From: Brachybacterium vulturis
GTDB lineage: Bacteria; Actinomycetota; Actinomycetes; Actinomycetales; Dermabacteraceae
Direction: 5' to 3'
Length of the DNA stretch: 64,000 nt
Assembly (NCBI RefSeq): GCF_002407185.1
Contig: NZ_CP023563.1
Coordinates: 1,674,001 to 1,738,000, forward strand
The notes beneath the pieces were generated by a model that saw only the letters and a list, made by a program, of their open reading frames with translations, had not been told where the DNA came from and did not search any database. Made by a program: the position numbers and the translations under genes. This document shows, piece after piece, positions 10,844 to 20,373 of this stretch (positions are counted from its first letter, which is position 1; each line of letters starts with the position of its first letter).

Positions 10844-11057
10844 GTCATCTCCTGATGGGGCGAGGTGGGCAGTCGCGCCGGGGGTTCCGACGGGAGGGTG
10901 ACGAGAGGTCGACGGGGCGACTCGACACGGCCCAATCATGCGAACGCCAGCGGACACATCGCAGTGGATGCTCAGATAACAGCCCTTATCGCGCCACAGT
11001 GATCAATTGACTCACCCGTCCAGTACGGTGTCTCCGATGCCGATCTGGAGGTGAGCC

Positions 11058-13013
11058 GTGCCGACGTTGACGATGCAGTCCATCGCGGACCTCACCCAGG
11101 TGCGCCGCGAGGTGGTCAGCGTATGGCGCTCCCGCTCCACCGGCAGCGAGCATCCGTTCCCGCCGCGGCTGTCTGCGGACGAGCTCCTCTTCGACGCCGG
11201 CGAGATCGCCGCCTGGCTGGACGTGACCGGGCGGGGGAACAACCCCGAGGCCCCGCTGGAGGTGCTCCTGCACTCCTCGCAGTTCGAGCAGCTGCGGGAG
11301 GACCTCGACGCCGCCTCGACCCTGCTCCTGGTCCACGACCTGGTGGGCGGCCCGCTGGCCACCCTCACCGCCGGTGAGGTCCTCGCCGGAACCGCTGCCT
11401 ACGAGCTCGGCGCTCTGGTCGCGCGGGAGCATCTCGCGGAGCTTCTCGAGCGCACCGCACTCGTGCGAGCCATCGACGAGCTCGCCGAAGCCGCCTTCTC
11501 CGGCCGGGGCCTGCTGGACCGGCTGATCACGTCCTTCGCCCGTCCCGACGGGCCCTGGGCCGGTGAGGCGCTCACCCCGGCCGGCACCTCGGTGATCCTC
11601 GAGGTGCTGCGCGGACTGCTGGACCAAGCAGCCTTCCGCCTCGACCCGCAGGGACGCGGCGGCCTGCTCCTGACCACAGCGCTCTCCGCGCTGCTCAGCG
11701 ATGAACTGCAGCCGGCCTTCGGCCTCGACTCCCAGGAGGGGCAGGACACCGTCACCCGGGCAGCGATGCGAATGCTCGCCGCGCACGCCGGACCGGACGC
11801 GGTGGGCCCGGTCGACGACGGCACACCGCATCTCGCGCTGTTCCAGCACCAGGACGTCCAGGACCCGCACGCCTTCTTCGAGCAGCTCGAATCGGTGCTG
11901 CTGGACCTCGGCCCCCGGGACGCGGCCGTGGTCATCGGGCCCTGCGAGCTCCTGGTCGACGGGATCGGGGACGAGCAGGTGCGCGCCACCCGCCACCGGC
12001 TGCTGCTGCCCACCCCGCAGAGCCCCGCACCGCTGCGCTACGTGGCCCGCCTGCCGAAGGGGCTCAGCCGCTTCGGGGGCCGCCGCCGGCTCGCGATGTG
12101 GGTGTTCGGCACCGCAGCGCCCCACGCCGGCACGGACTGGACCGTCTACGGGGAGCACGCAGACACCCCGCTCGATGCCTCCTCGCGGGCCGCGATCGCC
12201 GCCGATGTCACCGCGGCGCTCACCGGGGGCACCGCACTGACCGCCCACGCCTTCCTGCGCAGCACCCGCCTGGCCACCCCCGCCCTGCTGCGCCGACGAG
12301 ACCTCGTGCTCACCCCGTTCTCCCGCCCGCAGCGCAGCGGCGGCGAGAGCCTGGCCCGGCTCTGGGAGCTCGACGACGGACTGCTCGGGCAGTCCCTCAC
12401 CCTGGGCGCCACCGGCGAGGACGGCACCGACCCCACCCTCGCCTGGGCCGACGCCCTGGACGGGTTCGCGAGAGAGATCCGAGGCACCAGACTGACCTCG
12501 GACGTGATCGGCGCCCCCGCCGCGGGCAGCGTCGGGGTGATCGGACCGCAAGAGGTCCGCGAGCCCCAGCGCCTCGGCGAGCGGGCGATCGATCGTCTGG
12601 TCCTGGAGAAGGTGGCCGCTCGCAGCACTTTCACCGCCCCCGGCGACGTGGTGTTCACCGCGGAGGGCGGCGCCGCCGCCTTCGTCGACACCACGGGAGG
12701 CCATGTGCTCCAAGCCCCGGTCCGGGCCCTGCGATGCCTCCCCGAGCCCCGCCGGGAGCGGGTGCTGCATCCGCAGGCGCTCGCCGCGGACATCGCCGGC
12801 CAGAAAGGCCGCGACCGGCGCACCTGGCGGCTGCGCACCATCCCCGCCGAGGCGGTCCCCGCCCTCGACGCCGCCGCGCTGCGGCTGCAGGAACGCCGTG
12901 CGCAGCTGCGCCGACAGCTTTCGACCCTCGACCACCTCGAGGACGAACTCATCCAGGCCGTGGCCGCGGGAACCCTCGCCGCCACCGTCACCACCCCCAC
13001 GAAGGAGAACTGA
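11058..13013 (+). CDS. First gene of type I RM operon: HTH-like N-terminus, degenerate methylase-like core, S-like tail
   Basis: A 651-residue protein starting at GTG 11058 (GGAGG upstream). The first 60 residues resemble the helix-turn-helix seen at the N-terminus of some actinobacterial N6-methylases (SIADLTQVRREVVSVWRSRS, then FDAGEIAAWL). The middle (about 90-430) has the overall pattern of an N6-adenine methylase, including LPKGLSRFGGRRRLAMWVFG. However, the DPCCGSGG and NPPF motifs are missing; the position of NPPF appears replaced by VVIGPCELLV. The last 130 residues look like a specificity-subunit half: GDVVFTAEGG, then a C-terminal helix RRQLSTLDHLEDELIQAVAAGTL. It overlaps hsdM by ATGA and so is translationally coupled. 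Function is unknown; a role in DNA recognition or regulation of the RM complex is inference. Confidence 0.8.
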   Translation: MPTLTMQSIADLTQVRREVVSVWRSRSTGSEHPFPPRLSADELLFDAGEIAAWLDVTGRGNNPEAPLEVLLHSSQFEQLREDLDAASTLLLVHDLVGGPLATLTAGEVLAGTAAYELGALVAREHLAELLERTALVRAIDELAEAAFSGRGLLDRLITSFARPDGPWAGEALTPAGTSVILEVLRGLLDQAAFRLDPQGRGGLLLTTALSALLSDELQPAFGLDSQEGQDTVTRAAMRMLAAHAGPDAVGPVDDGTPHLALFQHQDVQDPHAFFEQLESVLLDLGPRDAAVVIGPCELLVDGIGDEQVRATRHRLLLPTPQSPAPLRYVARLPKGLSRFGGRRRLAMWVFGTAAPHAGTDWTVYGEHADTPLDASSRAAIAADVTAALTGGTALTAHAFLRSTRLATPALLRRRDLVLTPFSRPQRSGGESLARLWELDDGLLGQSLTLGATGEDGTDPTLAWADALDGFAREIRGTRLTSDVIGAPAAGSVGVIGPQEVREPQRLGERAIDRLVLEKVAARSTFTAPGDVVFTAEGGAAAFVDTTGGHVLQAPVRALRCLPEPRRERVLHPQALAADIAGQKGRDRRTWRLRTIPAEAVPALDAAALRLQERRAQLRRQLSTLDHLEDELIQAVAAGTLAATVTTPTKEN

Positions 13014-14614
13014 TGGCCACGACGCAGGCCGCCTTGGCGCCCTCGACGCCCAAGGAGCTCAAGGACACGCTGTGGAAGGCGGCGGACAAGCTCCGCGGCT
13101 CCATGGACGCCAGCCAGTACAAGGACGTGGTCCTGGGGCTCGTGTTCCTCAAGTACGTCTCCGACGCCTTCACCGAGCGCCGGGAGGCCATCCGCGCCGA
13201 GCTCGCCGGCGAGGGCGAGGAGTTCATCGCCGAGACCCTCGAGGAGGTGGACGAGTACACCGGCTCCGGCGTGTTCTGGGTGGCCCCCACTGCCCGCTGG
13301 GAGTACATCGCCACCCACGCCAAGGGCACCCAGGCCGGTGCGGGCACGGACCGCCAGACCGTCGGCGATCTCATCGACGCCGCGATGACTCACCTGGGCA
13401 CGGACAACACCTCGCTCGAGGGCACCCTGCCGCGGATCTACGGCCGCGACAACGTGGACCAGCGCCGCCTGGGCGAGCTGGTGGACCTGCTGAACTCCGC
13501 CCGTTTCACCGGCCAGGGCGCCAGCAAGGCCCGCGACCTGCTCGGTGAGGTCTACGAGTACTTCCTGGACAAGTTCGCCAAGGCCGAGGGCAAGCGCGGC
13601 GGCGAGTTCTACACCCCGCCGGTGCTGGTGCGCACCCTGGTGGAGATCCTCGAGCCCCACAAGGGCCGGGTCTACGACCCGTGCTGCGGCAGCGGCGGCA
13701 TGTTCGTGCAGGCCGAGAAGTTCCTCGCCGCGCACGACGAGGACCCCACGAACATCGCCGTCTACGGCCAGGAGCTCAACGAGCGCACCTGGCGGATGGC
13801 GAAGATGAACCTCGCCATCCACGGCATGGACTCCCAGGGCCTCGGCGCCCGCTGGGGCGACACCTTCGCCCGCGACATCCACCCGAACCTGGTGGCGGAC
13901 TACGTGCTGGCGAACCCGCCGTTCAACATCAAGGACTGGGCCCGTAACGAGGACGATGCCCGCTGGACCTATGGCGTGCCGCCGGTGCGGAACGCCAACT
14001 ACGCCTGGATGCAGCACATCCTCTCCAAGCTCTCCGCCCAGGGTGAGGCGGCCGTGGTGATGGCCAACGGCACCATGGCCTCGAACACCGGGGGAGAGGG
14101 CGAGATCCGCAAGCAGATGCTGAAAGCCGGCGTGGTCTCGGCGGTGGTGGCGATGCCGCCGAACCTGTTCCGCTCGGTCGCGATCCCGGTGTGCGTGTGG
14201 TTCTTCGCCAACGACAAGACCGCTGGGTCGAAGGGGTCGATCGATCGCAGCCGCGAGGTGCTGTTCATCGATGCCCGCGAGAGCGGGCACATGATCGACC
14301 GCGTGGAGCGCACGTTCTCCGACGAGGACATCCACCAGATCGCCAACACCTTCCGCACCTGGCGCGGCCGCGCCTCCGCCGAGGGCGAGTACGCGGACGT
14401 GCCCGGCTTCTGCAAGAGCGCAACGATCGAGGAGATCGAACAGGCCGGCTGGGCCGTGACGCCCGGCCGCTTCGTCGGTGTTCCGGAGGCAGAGGAGGAC
14501 GAGGAGCCGATCGACGAGAAGATCGAGCGGCTGACCAAGGAGCTGACGGCGGCGCTGGATGAGTCGGCGCGGCTGGATGCCGTGGTGCGAGAGCAGTTGG
14601 GGAGGCTGGCGTGA
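13013..14614 (+). CDS. hsdM: Type I restriction-modification system methylase subunit HsdM
   Basis: A 533-residue N6-adenine methyltransferase. The N-terminal HsdM helical domain (KELKDTLWKAADKLRGSMDASQYKDVVLGLVFLKYVSDAF) is intact. S-adenosylmethionine motif I is DPCCGSGGMF (about residue 222) and the catalytic motif IV is NPPF (about 301). A C-terminal stretch of acidic residues and helix follows. It modifies adenine in the target set by HsdS and forms the M2S core that HsdR joins. ATG 13013 overlaps the stop of the preceding gene, and its end overlaps the GTG of hsdS, so the four genes form one operon. Confidence 0.96.
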   Translation: MATTQAALAPSTPKELKDTLWKAADKLRGSMDASQYKDVVLGLVFLKYVSDAFTERREAIRAELAGEGEEFIAETLEEVDEYTGSGVFWVAPTARWEYIATHAKGTQAGAGTDRQTVGDLIDAAMTHLGTDNTSLEGTLPRIYGRDNVDQRRLGELVDLLNSARFTGQGASKARDLLGEVYEYFLDKFAKAEGKRGGEFYTPPVLVRTLVEILEPHKGRVYDPCCGSGGMFVQAEKFLAAHDEDPTNIAVYGQELNERTWRMAKMNLAIHGMDSQGLGARWGDTFARDIHPNLVADYVLANPPFNIKDWARNEDDARWTYGVPPVRNANYAWMQHILSKLSAQGEAAVVMANGTMASNTGGEGEIRKQMLKAGVVSAVVAMPPNLFRSVAIPVCVWFFANDKTAGSKGSIDRSREVLFIDARESGHMIDRVERTFSDEDIHQIANTFRTWRGRASAEGEYADVPGFCKSATIEEIEQAGWAVTPGRFVGVPEAEEDEEPIDEKIERLTKELTAALDESARLDAVVREQLGRLA

Positions 14615-15774
14615 GGACTGTACGGCTCGCAGACTTCATTTCGCTTCGCCGAGGTGCATCATACAAGGGAAGGCTGGTCGGCGACGAAGGAATTCCGCTG
14701 CTGGGGCTTGGGACAATTGCAAAGCATGGGGGGTTCAAGGCTTCCGGTGTTCGAAAATATGAGGGAGATGCCCCGGAGCGCATGCTCGTGCGAGGAGGAG
14801 ATCTTTATGTATCCCTCAAGGATATGACGCAAGAGGCCGCTCTCCTTGGCGCTGTCGCAAGAGTTCCCTCCGATATTGAGCTAGGTCGACTCACTCAAGA
14901 CACCATTGCGGTGGACGTAGACCCAGGGTTTGGCGTCGATCAGAGTTATTTGTACTGGACGCTTCGTGGCCCGAGATTTCGTGCGTACTGCAGAAATTTG
15001 GGAACAGGAACCATGAACCTTGATCTCTCGCAGAAGAATTTTCTGTCTTATGAGTTTGAATTACCTGAGCTCTCGTCCCAATCTGCGGTAGTCCAACTCC
15101 TTGGTGACCTCGATGACAAGGTAGTCGGGAACAGGGGACTGGTGGCGTCCTTGGATACTCTCCGCAAACAAATTTGGGCGAGAGTGTCTCGAGTAGATGC
15201 AGAGTCGACGCTCTCGTCGCACGCGCAATTCGTGAATGGTGGCGCCTATACGAAAGATGCTACCGGGAAAGGGAGAGTTGTCGTCCGGATCGCGGAGCTC
15301 AATAACGGTATCGGATCATCGACGGTTTACAACGATTTGGACGTACCGGACAAGCAAGTCGCGCGCGCCGGTGACCTGCTAATGTCGTGGTCTGGTTCCC
15401 TGACCGCAGTTCGCTGGTACCGCGACGATGCCATCGTTAACCAGCACATCTTCAAGGTCATCCCGAACGGTGGTACGCATGTATGGGCCGTTGCCTGCGC
15501 GATTGAAACGAAACTTGATCAGTTTCGCGAGATTGCCGCTGGTAAGGCGACGACGATGGGGCATATCAAGCGTGCAGATTTGGATGCTCCAGTTGCGTGG
15601 CCCGAGATCAGTGATCGCCTGAACGATGCAGGAAAAGCGCTGTGGGAGCGGGCACTCGCGGCCGAGAAGGAGAATCAGATCCTCGCCGCCACCCGCGACG
15701 AGCTTCTCCCGCTCCTGATGTCCGGCAAGATCACCGTCAAGGATGCCGAGAAGTCCGTCGAAGGAGTGCTCTGA
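14611..15774 (+). CDS. hsdS: Type I RM specificity subunit HsdS
   Basis: A 387-residue protein starting at GTG 14611, overlapping hsdM by 4 bases. Two target-recognition domains are visible. The first spans about residues 1-145 with conserved helix SQSAVVQLLGDLDDKVVGNRGLV (about 150-172). The second spans about 200-330, with AGDLLMSWSGSLTAVRW, and is followed by the closing helix EKENQILAATRDELLPLLMSGKI. Bases from about 14630 to 15655 are much poorer in GC than hsdM, hsdR or the last 40 codons of hsdS, and use many A/T-ending codons. This points to replacement of the recognition domains by transfer. The recognised DNA sequence cannot be told from the protein. Confidence 0.93.
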   Translation: MRTVRLADFISLRRGASYKGRLVGDEGIPLLGLGTIAKHGGFKASGVRKYEGDAPERMLVRGGDLYVSLKDMTQEAALLGAVARVPSDIELGRLTQDTIAVDVDPGFGVDQSYLYWTLRGPRFRAYCRNLGTGTMNLDLSQKNFLSYEFELPELSSQSAVVQLLGDLDDKVVGNRGLVASLDTLRKQIWARVSRVDAESTLSSHAQFVNGGAYTKDATGKGRVVVRIAELNNGIGSSTVYNDLDVPDKQVARAGDLLMSWSGSLTAVRWYRDDAIVNQHIFKVIPNGGTHVWAVACAIETKLDQFREIAAGKATTMGHIKRADLDAPVAWPEISDRLNDAGKALWERALAAEKENQILAATRDELLPLLMSGKITVKDAEKSVEGVL

Positions 15775-15775
15775 C

Positions 15776-18700
15776 ATGTCGTCCCACACCGGCGAAGACG
15801 CCTGGGAGCAGCTCGTCATCGATCGGATGGCCGAGCTGGATTGGCGGTTCACGCCCGGCGCGGAGGTCGCGCCGGGCTCGGGGGAGCGGGAGTCCTGGCA
15901 GGACATCGTGCTGCGCGGCACGCTCGATCGGGCGCTGAAGAACCTCAACCCCGAGGTGCCGGGGGAGTACCTGCAGCAGGCCGCCGCCGAGGTGCTTGCC
16001 CCGCAGTCGCAGGACGCGATCACTGAGAACCATCGCCTTCACGAGATCCTCCGGGACGGCTACCGCGGCATCACCTATGTGGACCATGACGGGCGCGAGC
16101 GCACTCCGGTGATCCGCTTCCTCTCCGGTGACCCGGCAGTGAACAGCTACCGGGTGGTGAATCAGGTGACCCTGCGGCGCGGTCAGGTGGAGCGTCGCTT
16201 CGACGTGATCGCCTATGTGAACGGTCTGCCGCTGGCGATCATGGAGCTCAAGCAGGCCGGCAGCCGGGCCGCAACGGCCGAGGCCGCGTTCAACCAGCTG
16301 CAGACCTATGTCACCGAGCTGCCGATGGCGTTCCGCTTCGCAGCTTTCGTGGTCGCCACCGACGGCATCAACGCGCGGTACGGCACGGCGTTCACGCCGT
16401 GGAACCACTTCGCGTCCTGGAACGTCGATGACGATGGTCGCCCCGTCGCGATCGGCGAGCCGGGACCGGACGGTGAGATCCTCACCGAGATCGACTGGAC
16501 GCTGAACGGCCTGTTCAACCTTGAACGCTTTGGGCAGCTGCTGCACGACTTCGTCGCCTTCGACGAGGACGCCGGTGGGCTCAGTAAGCGCATCGCCAAA
16601 CCGCACCAGTATTTCGCGGTCACCAAGGCCGTCGGCTCCACCATCAGCGCCGTCCGCTCCGACGGGAAGATCGGTGTGGTCTGGCACACCCAGGGCTCCG
16701 GCAAGTCCATGGAGATGGAGCTGTACACCGCGAAGGTGATGGGCCACCCGCAGCTGGCGAACCCCACCATCGTCGTCCTCACCGACCGCACCGAGCTGGA
16801 CACCCAGCTGTTCGACGGGTTCCAGCGCTCCACGCTGCTGCCCGAGCAGCCACGCCAGGTCGGCTCCCGCGAGGAGCTGCGCAGCCAGCTCAGCCAGCGC
16901 CGCACCGGCGGGATCTACTTCACCACCCTGCAGAAGTTCGGCCGCTCCCAGGCCGAACGGGAAGCGGGCACCGCCCACCCCCTGCTCTCGGACCGTCGCA
17001 ACATCATCGTCATCGCCGATGAGGCCCATCGCAGCCACTACGGAGACCTCGACGGCTACGCCCGCCACCTGCGCAGCGCCCTGCCCAACGCCGCGCTGAT
17101 CGCCTTCACCGGCACCCCCATCCGGGAGGCGGACCGCGACACCCGCGAGGTGTTCGGCGCCGACATCGACGTGTACGACCTGCGCCGCGCCGTGGAGGAC
17201 AACGCCACCGTCCCCGTCTACTTCGAGCCCCGACTGATCCAGCTCGCCCGGCTCGCCGACCTCGACGACGACGCGATCGACGACGCCGCCGAGGAGGCCA
17301 CCACCGGGCTGGACGAGGTGGACAAGCAGCGCCTGCAGCAGTCCGTCGCCGTGCTCGAAGCCCTCTACGGCGCGCCCGACCGGCTCGCCACCCTCGCGGC
17401 GGACTTCGTCGCCCACTGGGAGCAGCGCCGCGAGAACCTGCGCCCCATGATCGAGGGCCCCGGCAAGGCCATGATCGTCACCGCCACCCGCTCCATCGCC
17501 GCGCGGCTGTACGAGGAGATCGTCGCACTGCGCCCGGACTGGCACGACGACTCCGATGCGAAGGGCAAGATCAAGGTCGTCTACACCGCGAACCCCTCGG
17601 ACCCCGCGCAGATCAAAACCCATATGCGCCGGCCCGGTGCGATCGCCGCCGTCAAGCAGCGGGTCAAGGACCCCAGCGACGAACTCGAGATCGTGATCGT
17701 CAAGGACATGATGCTCACCGGGTTCGACGCCCCGGCCCTGCACACCCTGTACCTGGACCGCAGCATCAAGGGCGCCCTGCTCATGCAGACCCTCGCCCGC
17801 GTGAACCGCACCTTCAAGGGCAAGCAGGACGGGCTGCTGGTCGCCTACGCCCCGCTGCTGGAGAACCTCAACGCCGCACTGCGCGAGTTCACCCACGAGG
17901 TCGACCCCACCGACCCCTCCGCGGGCCGGCGCGACGTGGACGAGGCCGCCCAGCTGGTCCATTCGCTCGTCGGCTCCCTGCGGGAGATCGTCACCCTCGA
18001 CTGGAGGGCGATCCAGAACTCGGATGTGCGCCGAGGACATATCGACGCCGTCACCGCGACCGCCAACTTCCTGCGCTCTCCGCTCACCGAGGGGAACACG
18101 GACCCGGAAGATCCGGACGTTCGTCCGCTCGCTGACGCGTTCCGCAGCCTCTCGGCGAAGCTCGACCGGGCCTGGGCGCTCGCCGCCGGGCACGCCGACA
18201 TCCAACCGCTGCTGCCCGAGGTGCAGTTCTACAAGGAGGTGCGGGTATGGATGGCGAAGTACGACGCCCGTGACCGCCTCTCCCGCGGTGAACCGGTCTC
18301 CGACGAGGTACGGCGACTGCTCGGCGAGCTGCTGGTGGACTCCGCCGAGAGCACCGGCGTAGTGGACATCTACCAGGAGGCCGGGCTCGACCTCCAGCGA
18401 CTGGACGCGATCACCCCGGGTTGGGTCGAGGAGGCGAAGAAACCCTCGAAGTCCCAACTCGCGATCGAGGCGCTGAAGGCCACGATCCTCGAGGAAGCCG
18501 CCCAGGTGACCCGCGGCAACCAGGTGCGTTCGACACTGTTCTCCGACCGGATCAACGAGCTGATGCTGAAGTACACCAACAAGCAGCTCACCGCCGCGGA
18601 GATCATCACCCAGCTGATCGAGATGGCCCAGGAGGTCAGCGCCGAAGCGAGCCGAGGTGAGCGATTCAGCCCCCCGCTCGGCACCGACGAACTCTCCGTC

Positions 18701-18988
18701 TATGACGTGATCGCTCAGAACCCATCGGCTCTGGACGTGATGGGGGACGACACCCTCGCCCAGATCGCCCGCGATCTGGTGAGGATCATGCAACGGGACA
18801 TCCGCACCGACTGGACCGTGCGCGATGACGTCAAGGCCAAGATGCGCTCCTCGATCAAACGGCTGCTGCGCAAGTACAAGTACCCGCCGGACCAGCAGCC
18901 CCAGGCGATCGTGAGTGTCATGCACCAGATGGAGTCGCTCGCGCCGCGCTACGCCGAGCGGCACGATGTGGGTCGCGCTGGTAGCTGA
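15776..18988 (+). CDS. hsdR: Type I restriction enzyme motor/nuclease subunit HsdR
   Basis: A 1070-residue protein. The N-terminal nuclease domain has the RFDVIAYVNGLPLAIMELKQAG motif (Asp near 143, Glu and Lys near 158-160), the PD-(D/E)xK pattern. The helicase part has Walker A HTQGSGKS (about 303-310), the DEAH-type box IADEAHRSHYG (about 416) and IAFTGTPI (motif III). Later come MIVTATRSIAARLYEEI, DMMLTGFDAPALHTLYLD and TLARVNRTFKGK. It translocates and cuts unmodified DNA when bound to M2S. ATG 15776 lies directly after the hsdS stop and completes the operon. All motifs look intact, so the system may be active. Confidence 0.95.
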   Translation: MSSHTGEDAWEQLVIDRMAELDWRFTPGAEVAPGSGERESWQDIVLRGTLDRALKNLNPEVPGEYLQQAAAEVLAPQSQDAITENHRLHEILRDGYRGITYVDHDGRERTPVIRFLSGDPAVNSYRVVNQVTLRRGQVERRFDVIAYVNGLPLAIMELKQAGSRAATAEAAFNQLQTYVTELPMAFRFAAFVVATDGINARYGTAFTPWNHFASWNVDDDGRPVAIGEPGPDGEILTEIDWTLNGLFNLERFGQLLHDFVAFDEDAGGLSKRIAKPHQYFAVTKAVGSTISAVRSDGKIGVVWHTQGSGKSMEMELYTAKVMGHPQLANPTIVVLTDRTELDTQLFDGFQRSTLLPEQPRQVGSREELRSQLSQRRTGGIYFTTLQKFGRSQAEREAGTAHPLLSDRRNIIVIADEAHRSHYGDLDGYARHLRSALPNAALIAFTGTPIREADRDTREVFGADIDVYDLRRAVEDNATVPVYFEPRLIQLARLADLDDDAIDDAAEEATTGLDEVDKQRLQQSVAVLEALYGAPDRLATLAADFVAHWEQRRENLRPMIEGPGKAMIVTATRSIAARLYEEIVALRPDWHDDSDAKGKIKVVYTANPSDPAQIKTHMRRPGAIAAVKQRVKDPSDELEIVIVKDMMLTGFDAPALHTLYLDRSIKGALLMQTLARVNRTFKGKQDGLLVAYAPLLENLNAALREFTHEVDPTDPSAGRRDVDEAAQLVHSLVGSLREIVTLDWRAIQNSDVRRGHIDAVTATANFLRSPLTEGNTDPEDPDVRPLADAFRSLSAKLDRAWALAAGHADIQPLLPEVQFYKEVRVWMAKYDARDRLSRGEPVSDEVRRLLGELLVDSAESTGVVDIYQEAGLDLQRLDAITPGWVEEAKKPSKSQLAIEALKATILEEAAQVTRGNQVRSTLFSDRINELMLKYTNKQLTAAEIITQLIEMAQEVSAEASRGERFSPPLGTDELSVYDVIAQNPSALDVMGDDTLAQIARDLVRIMQRDIRTDWTVRDDVKAKMRSSIKRLLRKYKYPPDQQPQAIVSVMHQMESLAPRYAERHDVGRAGS

Positions 18989-19655
18989 CTACTTCGTCTA
19001 CATGGACGAGACGGGGACTCTCGATTTCGGACCCCCGCGGAGCCCGACCGAGTCGCCCTACTTCGGATTCGGCTCGGTGATCTTCCCCGGGGAGCACTCC
19101 GAGGCGATACGGGACGGCCATGCGCCCCGTGCATCGCTCGAATCTCGCGGAGTCAGGATCCCGTCCCAGTTCCATGCCAAGAACGACTCGTGGAGCACCC
19201 GTGGAGACGTCTACGCTGTCATCGCAGGGCAGAAGCCGCGCTTCGATTCGACGCTGCCGTGAAAACAGAACGCGTAACCGAGAGTCGTGGCCGGGGGCAA
19301 GCCACGTCTGTACAAGATCGCGCTCTTCCTGCATCTGAGGTTTCTTTGCGAGAAGGTCTTCGCCCGCGAGGATCGGCTCTATGTCGTGGTCGCGACGATC
19401 GGGACCAAGGCGATGAGGAGCGCAGCCTCAGCTGCCGTCGACGACGTCGCGGCACAGATGCCGCAGGACGTGACAGCGTGCTTCTGGGACTCATCCTCGA
19501 CGTGGGGTCTTCAGGTAGCTGACTACCTGCTCTGGGCGAGGCAGCGAGTTCTTCAGGGGAAGGCCGTGAACGTCTACGAGACTCATGTCGCGCCGCTGGT
19601 CGAGTCCACGTTCTTTCCCTGGGGACGCACGGAAGACAGCCCGCTGGACACCTGA
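18966..19655 (+). pseudogene. DUF3800 family gene broken by two in-frame stop codons
   Basis: The first part, from ATG 18966, reads ADYFVYMDETGTLDFG, the N-terminal DUF3800 signature with its conserved acidic residues. The last part reads GKPRLYKIALFLHLRF and ends with SSSTWGLQVADYLLWARQR, the C-terminal DUF3800 signature (QVADYLxWA). Both parts are in the same frame, but TGA at 19260 and TAA at 19275 interrupt it. The four codons between the stops (KQNA) and PRVV after them also fit the family. DUF3800 proteins are thought to be nuclease-like and are often found next to defence genes, and this one overlaps the hsdR end by 23 bases. Two different stops in one frame argue against recoding. Confidence 0.85.
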
Positions 19656-20235: not shown

Positions 20236-20373
20236 ATAGTGAAAGGATGCGGTCACGCTCTGACACGACGGGTGCGAGATTTCGATAAACCTCCTTATCA
20301 GTTCGCCGTGCGCGCTGATACCGCATGGAGCGCTGTCGGGAATTCATCGCGGCCCCGCCGCGTTGACCCCGCC

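Follow-up and report, generated by a model that had tools for sequence, protein, structure and literature searches.

Why should an operon for a type I restriction-modification (RM) system begin with a gene whose product has the outline of a modification subunit, starts like a DNA-binding protein, ends like a specificity subunit, and lacks the signature motifs of a methylase? The gene, here named X, lies in a stretch of 64,000 nucleotides of Brachybacterium vulturis DNA (NZ_CP023563.1, positions 1,674,001 to 1,738,000). We call this whole stretch the window; it belongs to a genome of 3.80 Mb, held in one contig. What is such a protein for?

The operon and its distribution

X, hsdM, hsdS and hsdR form a single unit on the + strand, X-M-S-R, that is, a type I operon led by X (Table 1). 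S and R lie downstream, as the initial annotation had it, on the same strand and with the Pfam domains expected of them. It had also described X as coupled by ATGA to a normal hsdM: the coupling and the normality of hsdM stand, the ATGA does not, the real junction being TGATG, where the TGA of X (13011-13013) overlaps by 1 nt the ATG of M (13013-13015). M and S overlap in turn by 4 nt (GTGA). For hsdR, reading the sequence makes the Met at 15776 a likelier start than the ATG at 15743. Directly after hsdR, at 18978-19655 of the window, comes a DUF3800-like gene, apparently broken, the second piece of which matches Pfam DUF3800 (E 3.8e-4) while the first has no match.

Table 1. Features of the X-M-S-R operon and of its upstream region, in window positions
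Feature	Positions	Strand	Description
Predicted operator palindrome AGATAACAGCCCTTATCG	10974..10991	strandless	10/12 positions of the family consensus TGATAA-N6-TTATCA
-10-like hexamer TACGGT	11024..11029	+	begins 33 nt past the operator; a -35 consensus is lacking at the proper spacing
X ORF	11058..13013	+	651 aa; GTG start, GGAGG ahead; proposed operon controller
X residues 1-62	11058..11243	+	putative DNA-binding head at the N terminus, containing the HTH (recognition helix at about 14-26)
X residues about 191-400	11628..12257	+	degenerate N6-methylase region without motifs I and IV
X residues about 467-600	12456..12857	+	TRD-like domain with the conserved PGDVVF stretch (525-562)
X residues about 601-651	12858..13010	+	helical tail resembling an HsdS conserved region; weakly conserved in X (0.26)
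hsdM (M)	13013..14614	+	DPCCGSGG and NPPF intact; Pfam HsdM_N/N6_Mtase
hsdS (S)	14611..15774	+	Pfam Methylase_S
hsdR (R)	15776..18988	+	Pfam HSDR_N/SWI2_SNF2; the ORF has its first ATG at 15743

The same gene order was sought in other genomes. Forty loci were reduced to 33 comparable ones by leaving out L065, L066, L067, L069 and L070 (remote, remnant or at a contig end), L068 (contig end, with a cut M after X) and L071 (the same locus as L001); in this and the later counts near copies (L036/L037, L149/L150, L161/L162, L175/L176) were retained, except for L036 in the count of -10 hexamers given below. In all 33, X is followed on its strand by hsdM as the next gene found, and hsdM by hsdS. The gap between X and M is at most 30 nt in 30 of them (the exceptions are L045, 52 nt, L036, 803 nt, and L037, 505 nt), and hsdR is present in the fetched stretch in 30, often past inserted genes. 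The order X-M-S-R is also that of 7/7 loci from other orders, and a layout that recurs to this extent is not due to chance. The genes found between hsdS and hsdR (L061:7967-9076, L053:7840-9663, L055:7816-9579) code for a DUF1016/YhcG PDDEXK nuclease and for Schlafen AlbA_2 proteins.

Looking from hsdM instead of X leads to the same picture. Within the order to which the window belongs, 32 of 33 HsdM homologues of at least 61% identity are preceded by X (in pieces in genome G074), so that X is not a gene that related operons lack; among remoter homologues (at most 55% identity) none of 17 has X ahead. One close HsdM operon, in genome G333 (locus L125), has neither X nor an operator-like site before hsdM and, given this case, X is not indispensable in every operon.

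Genome searches scored 3 to 8 candidates per genome, which makes all genome counts for X and M lower bounds. X is present in at least 4 of the 47 genomes of the own-family sample (one a mere fragment), in at least 36 of the 396 of the order sample (some partial) and, at full length, in at least 10 of 246 class genomes, three of which are already counted. At least 48 of these 246 gave a match; in most of them it is confined to the HTH part, and such cases do not enter the count of X. Among the best few candidates per genome in a phylum sample of 149, a full-length X appeared only in the window's own genome. Several actinobacterial families have the gene, which two conjugative plasmids of Micrococcaceae also carry; the closest named relative of the window's X, 66% identical, is that of Brachybacterium massiliense. 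Genomes G026, G424 and G524 hold remnants. A decayed locus (L112:6901-7387) has a 143-aa remnant of X followed by hsdR fragments, with an operator core (GATAAACCGGCTTATC) that begins 55 nt ahead of the remnant.

The X protein and its methylase kin

Taken alone, the X protein of the window has no significant match among Pfam, NCBIfam and PADLOC profiles. An alignment of 33 X proteins (L059 left out) is more telling: the N-terminal HTH (...VQRPVVSMWR...) and the PGDVVF stretch near residue 530 are conspicuous in it. HTH_17 matches two of these 33 members and HTH_23 three (E up to 0.1; best 8.8e-4), while the N6_Mtase profile matches three weakly (best 0.014). The X of L064 goes further, with 1.7e-12 against the mad2 methylase profile and 5.8e-8, HTH included, against a type I methylase profile; from this match we infer that the PADLOC family MTase_I PDLC03037 may hold proteins of the HTH-N6_Mtase-TRD type.

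Such single-chain proteins, of which we collected eleven from actinobacteria (L114-L124), provide the bridge to the methylases. The X profile aligns to L114 over 5-663 of its 675 positions (full-sequence E 4e-26), and L114 itself matches the M profile (5e-36), Pfam N6_Mtase (1.9e-36) and the S profile (2e-7). X is thus homologous to the N6-methylase domain through intermediates, over nearly its full length, and its methylase ancestry follows from them, direct profile-profile comparison of X with HsdM (hhalign) being not significant. The same kind of comparison does succeed with HsdS, where residues 516-650 of X match the second half of S (E 1.7e-5, probability 79). An HsdS has two TRDs with conserved helices between them, and X matches just one half.

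DPCCGSGG and NPPF, present in the M of the window, are both absent from its X. NPPF is found in none of 40 X proteins (the 33 of the alignment plus L105-L111, aligned with relatives), and motif I is degenerate, with traces such as DPxPGxGDLL surviving in several (L046, L047, L049). Neither the motif I (DPxxGSGG) nor the motif IV (NPPF) of a catalytic HsdM or N6_Mtase is there, and X, judged by this loss, would not be an active methylase. The initial annotation had read X as an HTH, a dead methylase devoid of these two motifs and an S-like half, ending as a specificity subunit does. This description is borne out: the HTH is conserved, the methylase is recovered via intermediates and the S half by profile comparison. 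Structure prediction (window X, L001 homologue) gave a mean pLDDT of 33.6, too low for the fold to be read, and a scan of viral_contigs for further X homologues usable in modelling yielded none.

A candidate operator and its probable reader

Upstream of X lies a palindrome of consensus TGATAA-N6-TTATCA. At least 10 of its 12 fixed positions are matched in 34 of 36 X loci (the 33 comparable ones, L068, L069 and the window), a score reached by 0.17% of letter-shuffled upstream regions; the outliers are L060 (9/12) and L062 (8/12, a symmetric variant). The motif was read from these 36 loci themselves, and only 26 later loci are independent; these omit L145, L147, L152, L157, L164, L173, L177 and L179 (genomes already seen) and L154 (a fragment). 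Twenty-five of the 26 have the operator, 20 of them at 10/12 or better, four as GTTAA/GTTTA variants and L165 by direct search, while L160 has X and no operator in its 1.5-kb flank. It is also present in all seven loci from other orders, in two of them as GTTAA. The search score is partly a similarity to the GATAA consensus, and could hide variants.

No fetched X locus has the pattern more than once, and its place is always ahead of X; the window has one more, at 20284. In 18 HsdM loci that lack X, there is no operator within 300 nt of hsdM (best 9/12), a looser pattern being present elsewhere in two X-less loci, L135 and L140. The core is also absent from the eleven relative loci L114-L124, and a shared palindrome, looked for before the HTH-methylase relatives, was not found. 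In the host genome GATAAN6TTATC occurs in three places. The second, at 20284-20299 of the window, lies 1.3 kb past hsdR and is followed after 75 nt by what is likely the ATG of an ORF resembling quinone reductases (its name and start are read from the sequence); by eye, no TANNNT stands at +31..+35 from it in either direction. The third is at genome position 2486190. X, then, has what marks a controller: it is an HTH protein encoded in an RM operon, with a conserved predicted operator at its own promoter.

The palindrome keeps its distance from a -10-like hexamer. TANNNT begins at +31..+35 from the operator in 37 of 42 loci (L036, a near copy of L037, is dropped), when 1000 letter shuffles give 1.4 on average and 6 at most, and it does so again in 21 of 26 later loci. 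No conserved -35 was seen at a spacing of 16-18 nt: TTGACA is matched at 2-4 of its 6 positions in 35 of 37 loci, mostly at 2-3. Reckoned from a typical start site, the operator would be centred at about -54, on the upstream side of the -35 position. With a -10 at constant spacing and a -35 that is not conserved, this geometry makes activation the most likely mode of action of X. In six loci (L046, L049, L051, L054, L060, L063), the start codon of X lies 43-46 nt past the operator, close to the expected start of the transcript, which means that X may be read there from a leaderless message. The start codons used in L068, L069 and L105-L108 lie 9-38 nt past the operator, and were probably set too early.

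Protein and operator also change together. Counted over 67 loci, after dropping L160 (no site) and L165 (found by direct search), a position of the recognition helix is Val (once Leu) or Ala. Ala goes with a T..A operator (GTTAA/GTTTA) in 9/9 loci, a number swollen by related loci (L148-L151 with L053), and T..A is found in none of the 58 non-Ala loci, which have 53 A..T, three G..T, one A..C and one A..A. The match is not one-to-one: the three G..T and the A..C belong to Val-type loci, the A..A to the Leu locus L060. A tree of 43 X proteins, from which the HTH columns were left out, shows three changes in each trait, and a sister pair with 100/100 support separates L107 (Val, GATAA) from L108 (Ala, GTTAA). 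All three independent pairs agree; with n=3 the sign test (p 0.25) is incapable of significance.

Layout, motif loss, operator, spacing, this covariation and the evolutionary distances considered below, which follow M, are what the sequence statistics cover. Taken together, they lead us to regard X as probably a dedicated transcription controller of its type I operon, one that was built from a dead methylase and most likely activates. The idea that X could control expression, put forward in the initial annotation, is thereby well supported at the level of sequence statistics, through operator, fixed spacing and covariation. We would picture the following course. X shares ancestry with single-chain HTH-methylase-TRD proteins and would have lost its catalytic motifs afterwards. 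A dimer of X would bind TGATAA-N6-TTATCA via its N-terminal HTHs, just upstream of its own promoter, and would activate transcription of X-M-S-R in an autogenous loop, as C proteins do. The pseudo-methylase/S-like body might then act as a sensor of HsdM or of the M2S core, so that expression would depend on the amount of modification enzyme. The HTH-operator half of this proposal appears well supported; a body that contacts HsdM is a conjecture.

Possible roles and known counterparts

A body of 650 residues exceeds the needs of a plain regulator, and this counts against reading X as a controller. Tentatively, X might compete with HsdS for HsdM via its S-like half, free HsdM or assembled M2S setting the drive of the operon. 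Beside control, X might also take part in the enzyme complex. Pushed further, the thought makes of X a structural fourth subunit, inactive M and half S, that would join HsdM and HsdS and change assembly, restriction or DNA binding, with binding of the HTH to the operator a side role or none; we hold this to be rather unlikely. The S-like C-terminal half speaks for it, as does the tight coupling ahead of hsdM in 30 of the 33 loci. Over 28 loci, the distances between X proteins correlate with those of M (r 0.84) and of R (0.79), and still with M once R is removed (partial r 0.51), which favours a structural subunit. For the third role offered in the initial annotation, a possible reshaping of the M2S core, what bears on it is this same X-M correlation, which is compatible with contact to HsdM. 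Against a structural subunit, X distances show hardly any correlation with those of S (r 0.13), although M and S themselves correlate at merely 0.24, S being near saturation, so that the low X-S value is weak evidence. Between L036 and L037, X is 95% and M 99% identical, when S is only 35%. The TRD-like domain of X (467-600), with a mean pairwise identity of 0.37 (0.55 in its best stretch, 525-562), is less variable than the two TRDs of S (0.20) and is not swapped along with S, and a purely structural role leaves the match between operator and HTH unexplained.

The same figures bear on another suggestion of the initial annotation, that X could add a target-recognition half, which they disfavour. 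The TRDs of HsdS diverge and are exchanged, the TRD-like domain of X does neither in this manner, and the helical tail of X is less conserved (0.26) than the conserved regions of S (0.44, 0.50). Distances that follow M and R, an S swapped in L036/L037 beside a kept X, and the lesser variability of the TRD-like domain argue that X does not choose targets; on these comparisons it would go with M and with the promoter.

If X is a controller, it could also be a repressor, holding the operon down until HsdM/HsdS titrates it away. This version of control is possible, and it has precedents: the regulatory methylases Ecl18kI, SsoII and EcoRII repress via their N-terminal HTHs (according to sections of PMC12707154 and PMC3874152), and for a type I operon of Mycoplasma gallisepticum, HsdC appears to act as a repressor (in the text of PMC5282649 bearing on it). 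The HsdC site overlaps the -10 box (same section of PMC5282649), however, whereas the palindrome of X stands at a fixed distance upstream of the -35 position, with no -35 conserved. That some other cellular regulator binds the palindrome, the HTH of X serving to target the enzyme to DNA, is improbable. The genome does hold two core sites besides that of X, and the binding of X to its palindrome is predicted from sequence only; but three core sites in a genome are few, the site tracks X across genera and was not found ahead of hsdM where X is absent, and HTH and operator change together. Least credible of all would be that X is what a duplicated methylase gene left behind, now in decay. Catalytic motifs are lost, X changes faster than M (66% vs 95% identity) and remnants are known in the three genomes named above, and yet frames are full length in 33/33 comparable loci, HTH and TRD residues are invariant and the operator is conserved. 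Over four pairs dN/dS is 0.20-0.43 for X, as compared with 0.04-0.13 for M; values such as those of X indicate that the gene is maintained.

A controller of the kind we propose has a number of counterparts. M.Ecl18kI, M.SsoII and M.EcoRII are cytosine methylases. They are type II enzymes headed by an HTH that control their own RM genes (as given in parts of PMC12707154 and PMC3874152). X resembles them in its HTH head on a methylase body and, by prediction, in the regulation of its own RM genes. These enzymes are live and repress from an operator overlapping the promoter. X differs from them in its lost motifs, in its S-like half and in being part of a type I operon, and its predicted operator lies ahead of the -35 position. 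C proteins, for their part, are small HTH proteins. Those of AhdI and PvuII activate from sites upstream of -35, the side on which the operator of X is also found, and in one type I operon, of Mollicutes, the C protein HsdC has direct repeats over the -10 box, with some of its homologues fused to modification subunits (portions of PMC5282649). X is like HsdC in that its gene belongs to a type I hsd operon with a predicted site in its own promoter; it is unlike C proteins by its length of about 650 aa, its pseudo-methylase/half-S body and its inverted repeat. A third relevant case is RptR, a repressor of 79 aa from Gammaproteobacteria whose binding sites are repeated palindromes of 6 bp; the gene is next to a type I RM system for 54 of 117 homologues, with palindromic sites conserved in the promoter (excerpts of PMC12255303). 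Linkage to type I RM and a palindromic site in the promoter are common to RptR and X, but RptR has no methylase or S part. The consulted portion of a BREX survey (PMC12839542) describes nothing matching X. As the initial annotation had supposed of the exact layout, we found no description of it as a part of RM systems in the open-access literature (subscription papers, preprints and REBASE lay outside this scope). X thus combines known ideas, the regulatory HTH-methylase, the type I C protein and RptR, in a form that we did not find described there.

The nearest comparison is with the actinobacterial HTH-N6_Mtase-TRD proteins. They have the domain order of X; unlike X, ten of the eleven keep motif I (DPxxGxG) and nine have PPF or PPY at motif IV, and none has a GATAA operator. 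The full NPP[FY] is found only in L118 and L120, and some of the eleven may be inactive too. Three of these genes (L118:7893-10013, L120:7983-10022, L121:7959-10097) lie directly before a different clade of type I M-S-R; their motif I looks intact and their motif IV reads NPPY, NPPF and NLPF respectively. These proteins are possibly a live counterpart of X and, since they precede another type I clade, recruitment of an HTH-methylase may have occurred more than once. The X family offers a defined candidate controller, with one protein, one operator and one promoter, spread over several actinobacterial families and two conjugative plasmids. Were X indeed to compete with HsdS for HsdM, type I systems of conjugative plasmids would gain, at the level of transcription, a way to modify the DNA of a new host before restricting it. 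In X a dead methylase has been kept as a probable regulator, and it can be compared with relatives that retain the methylase motifs.
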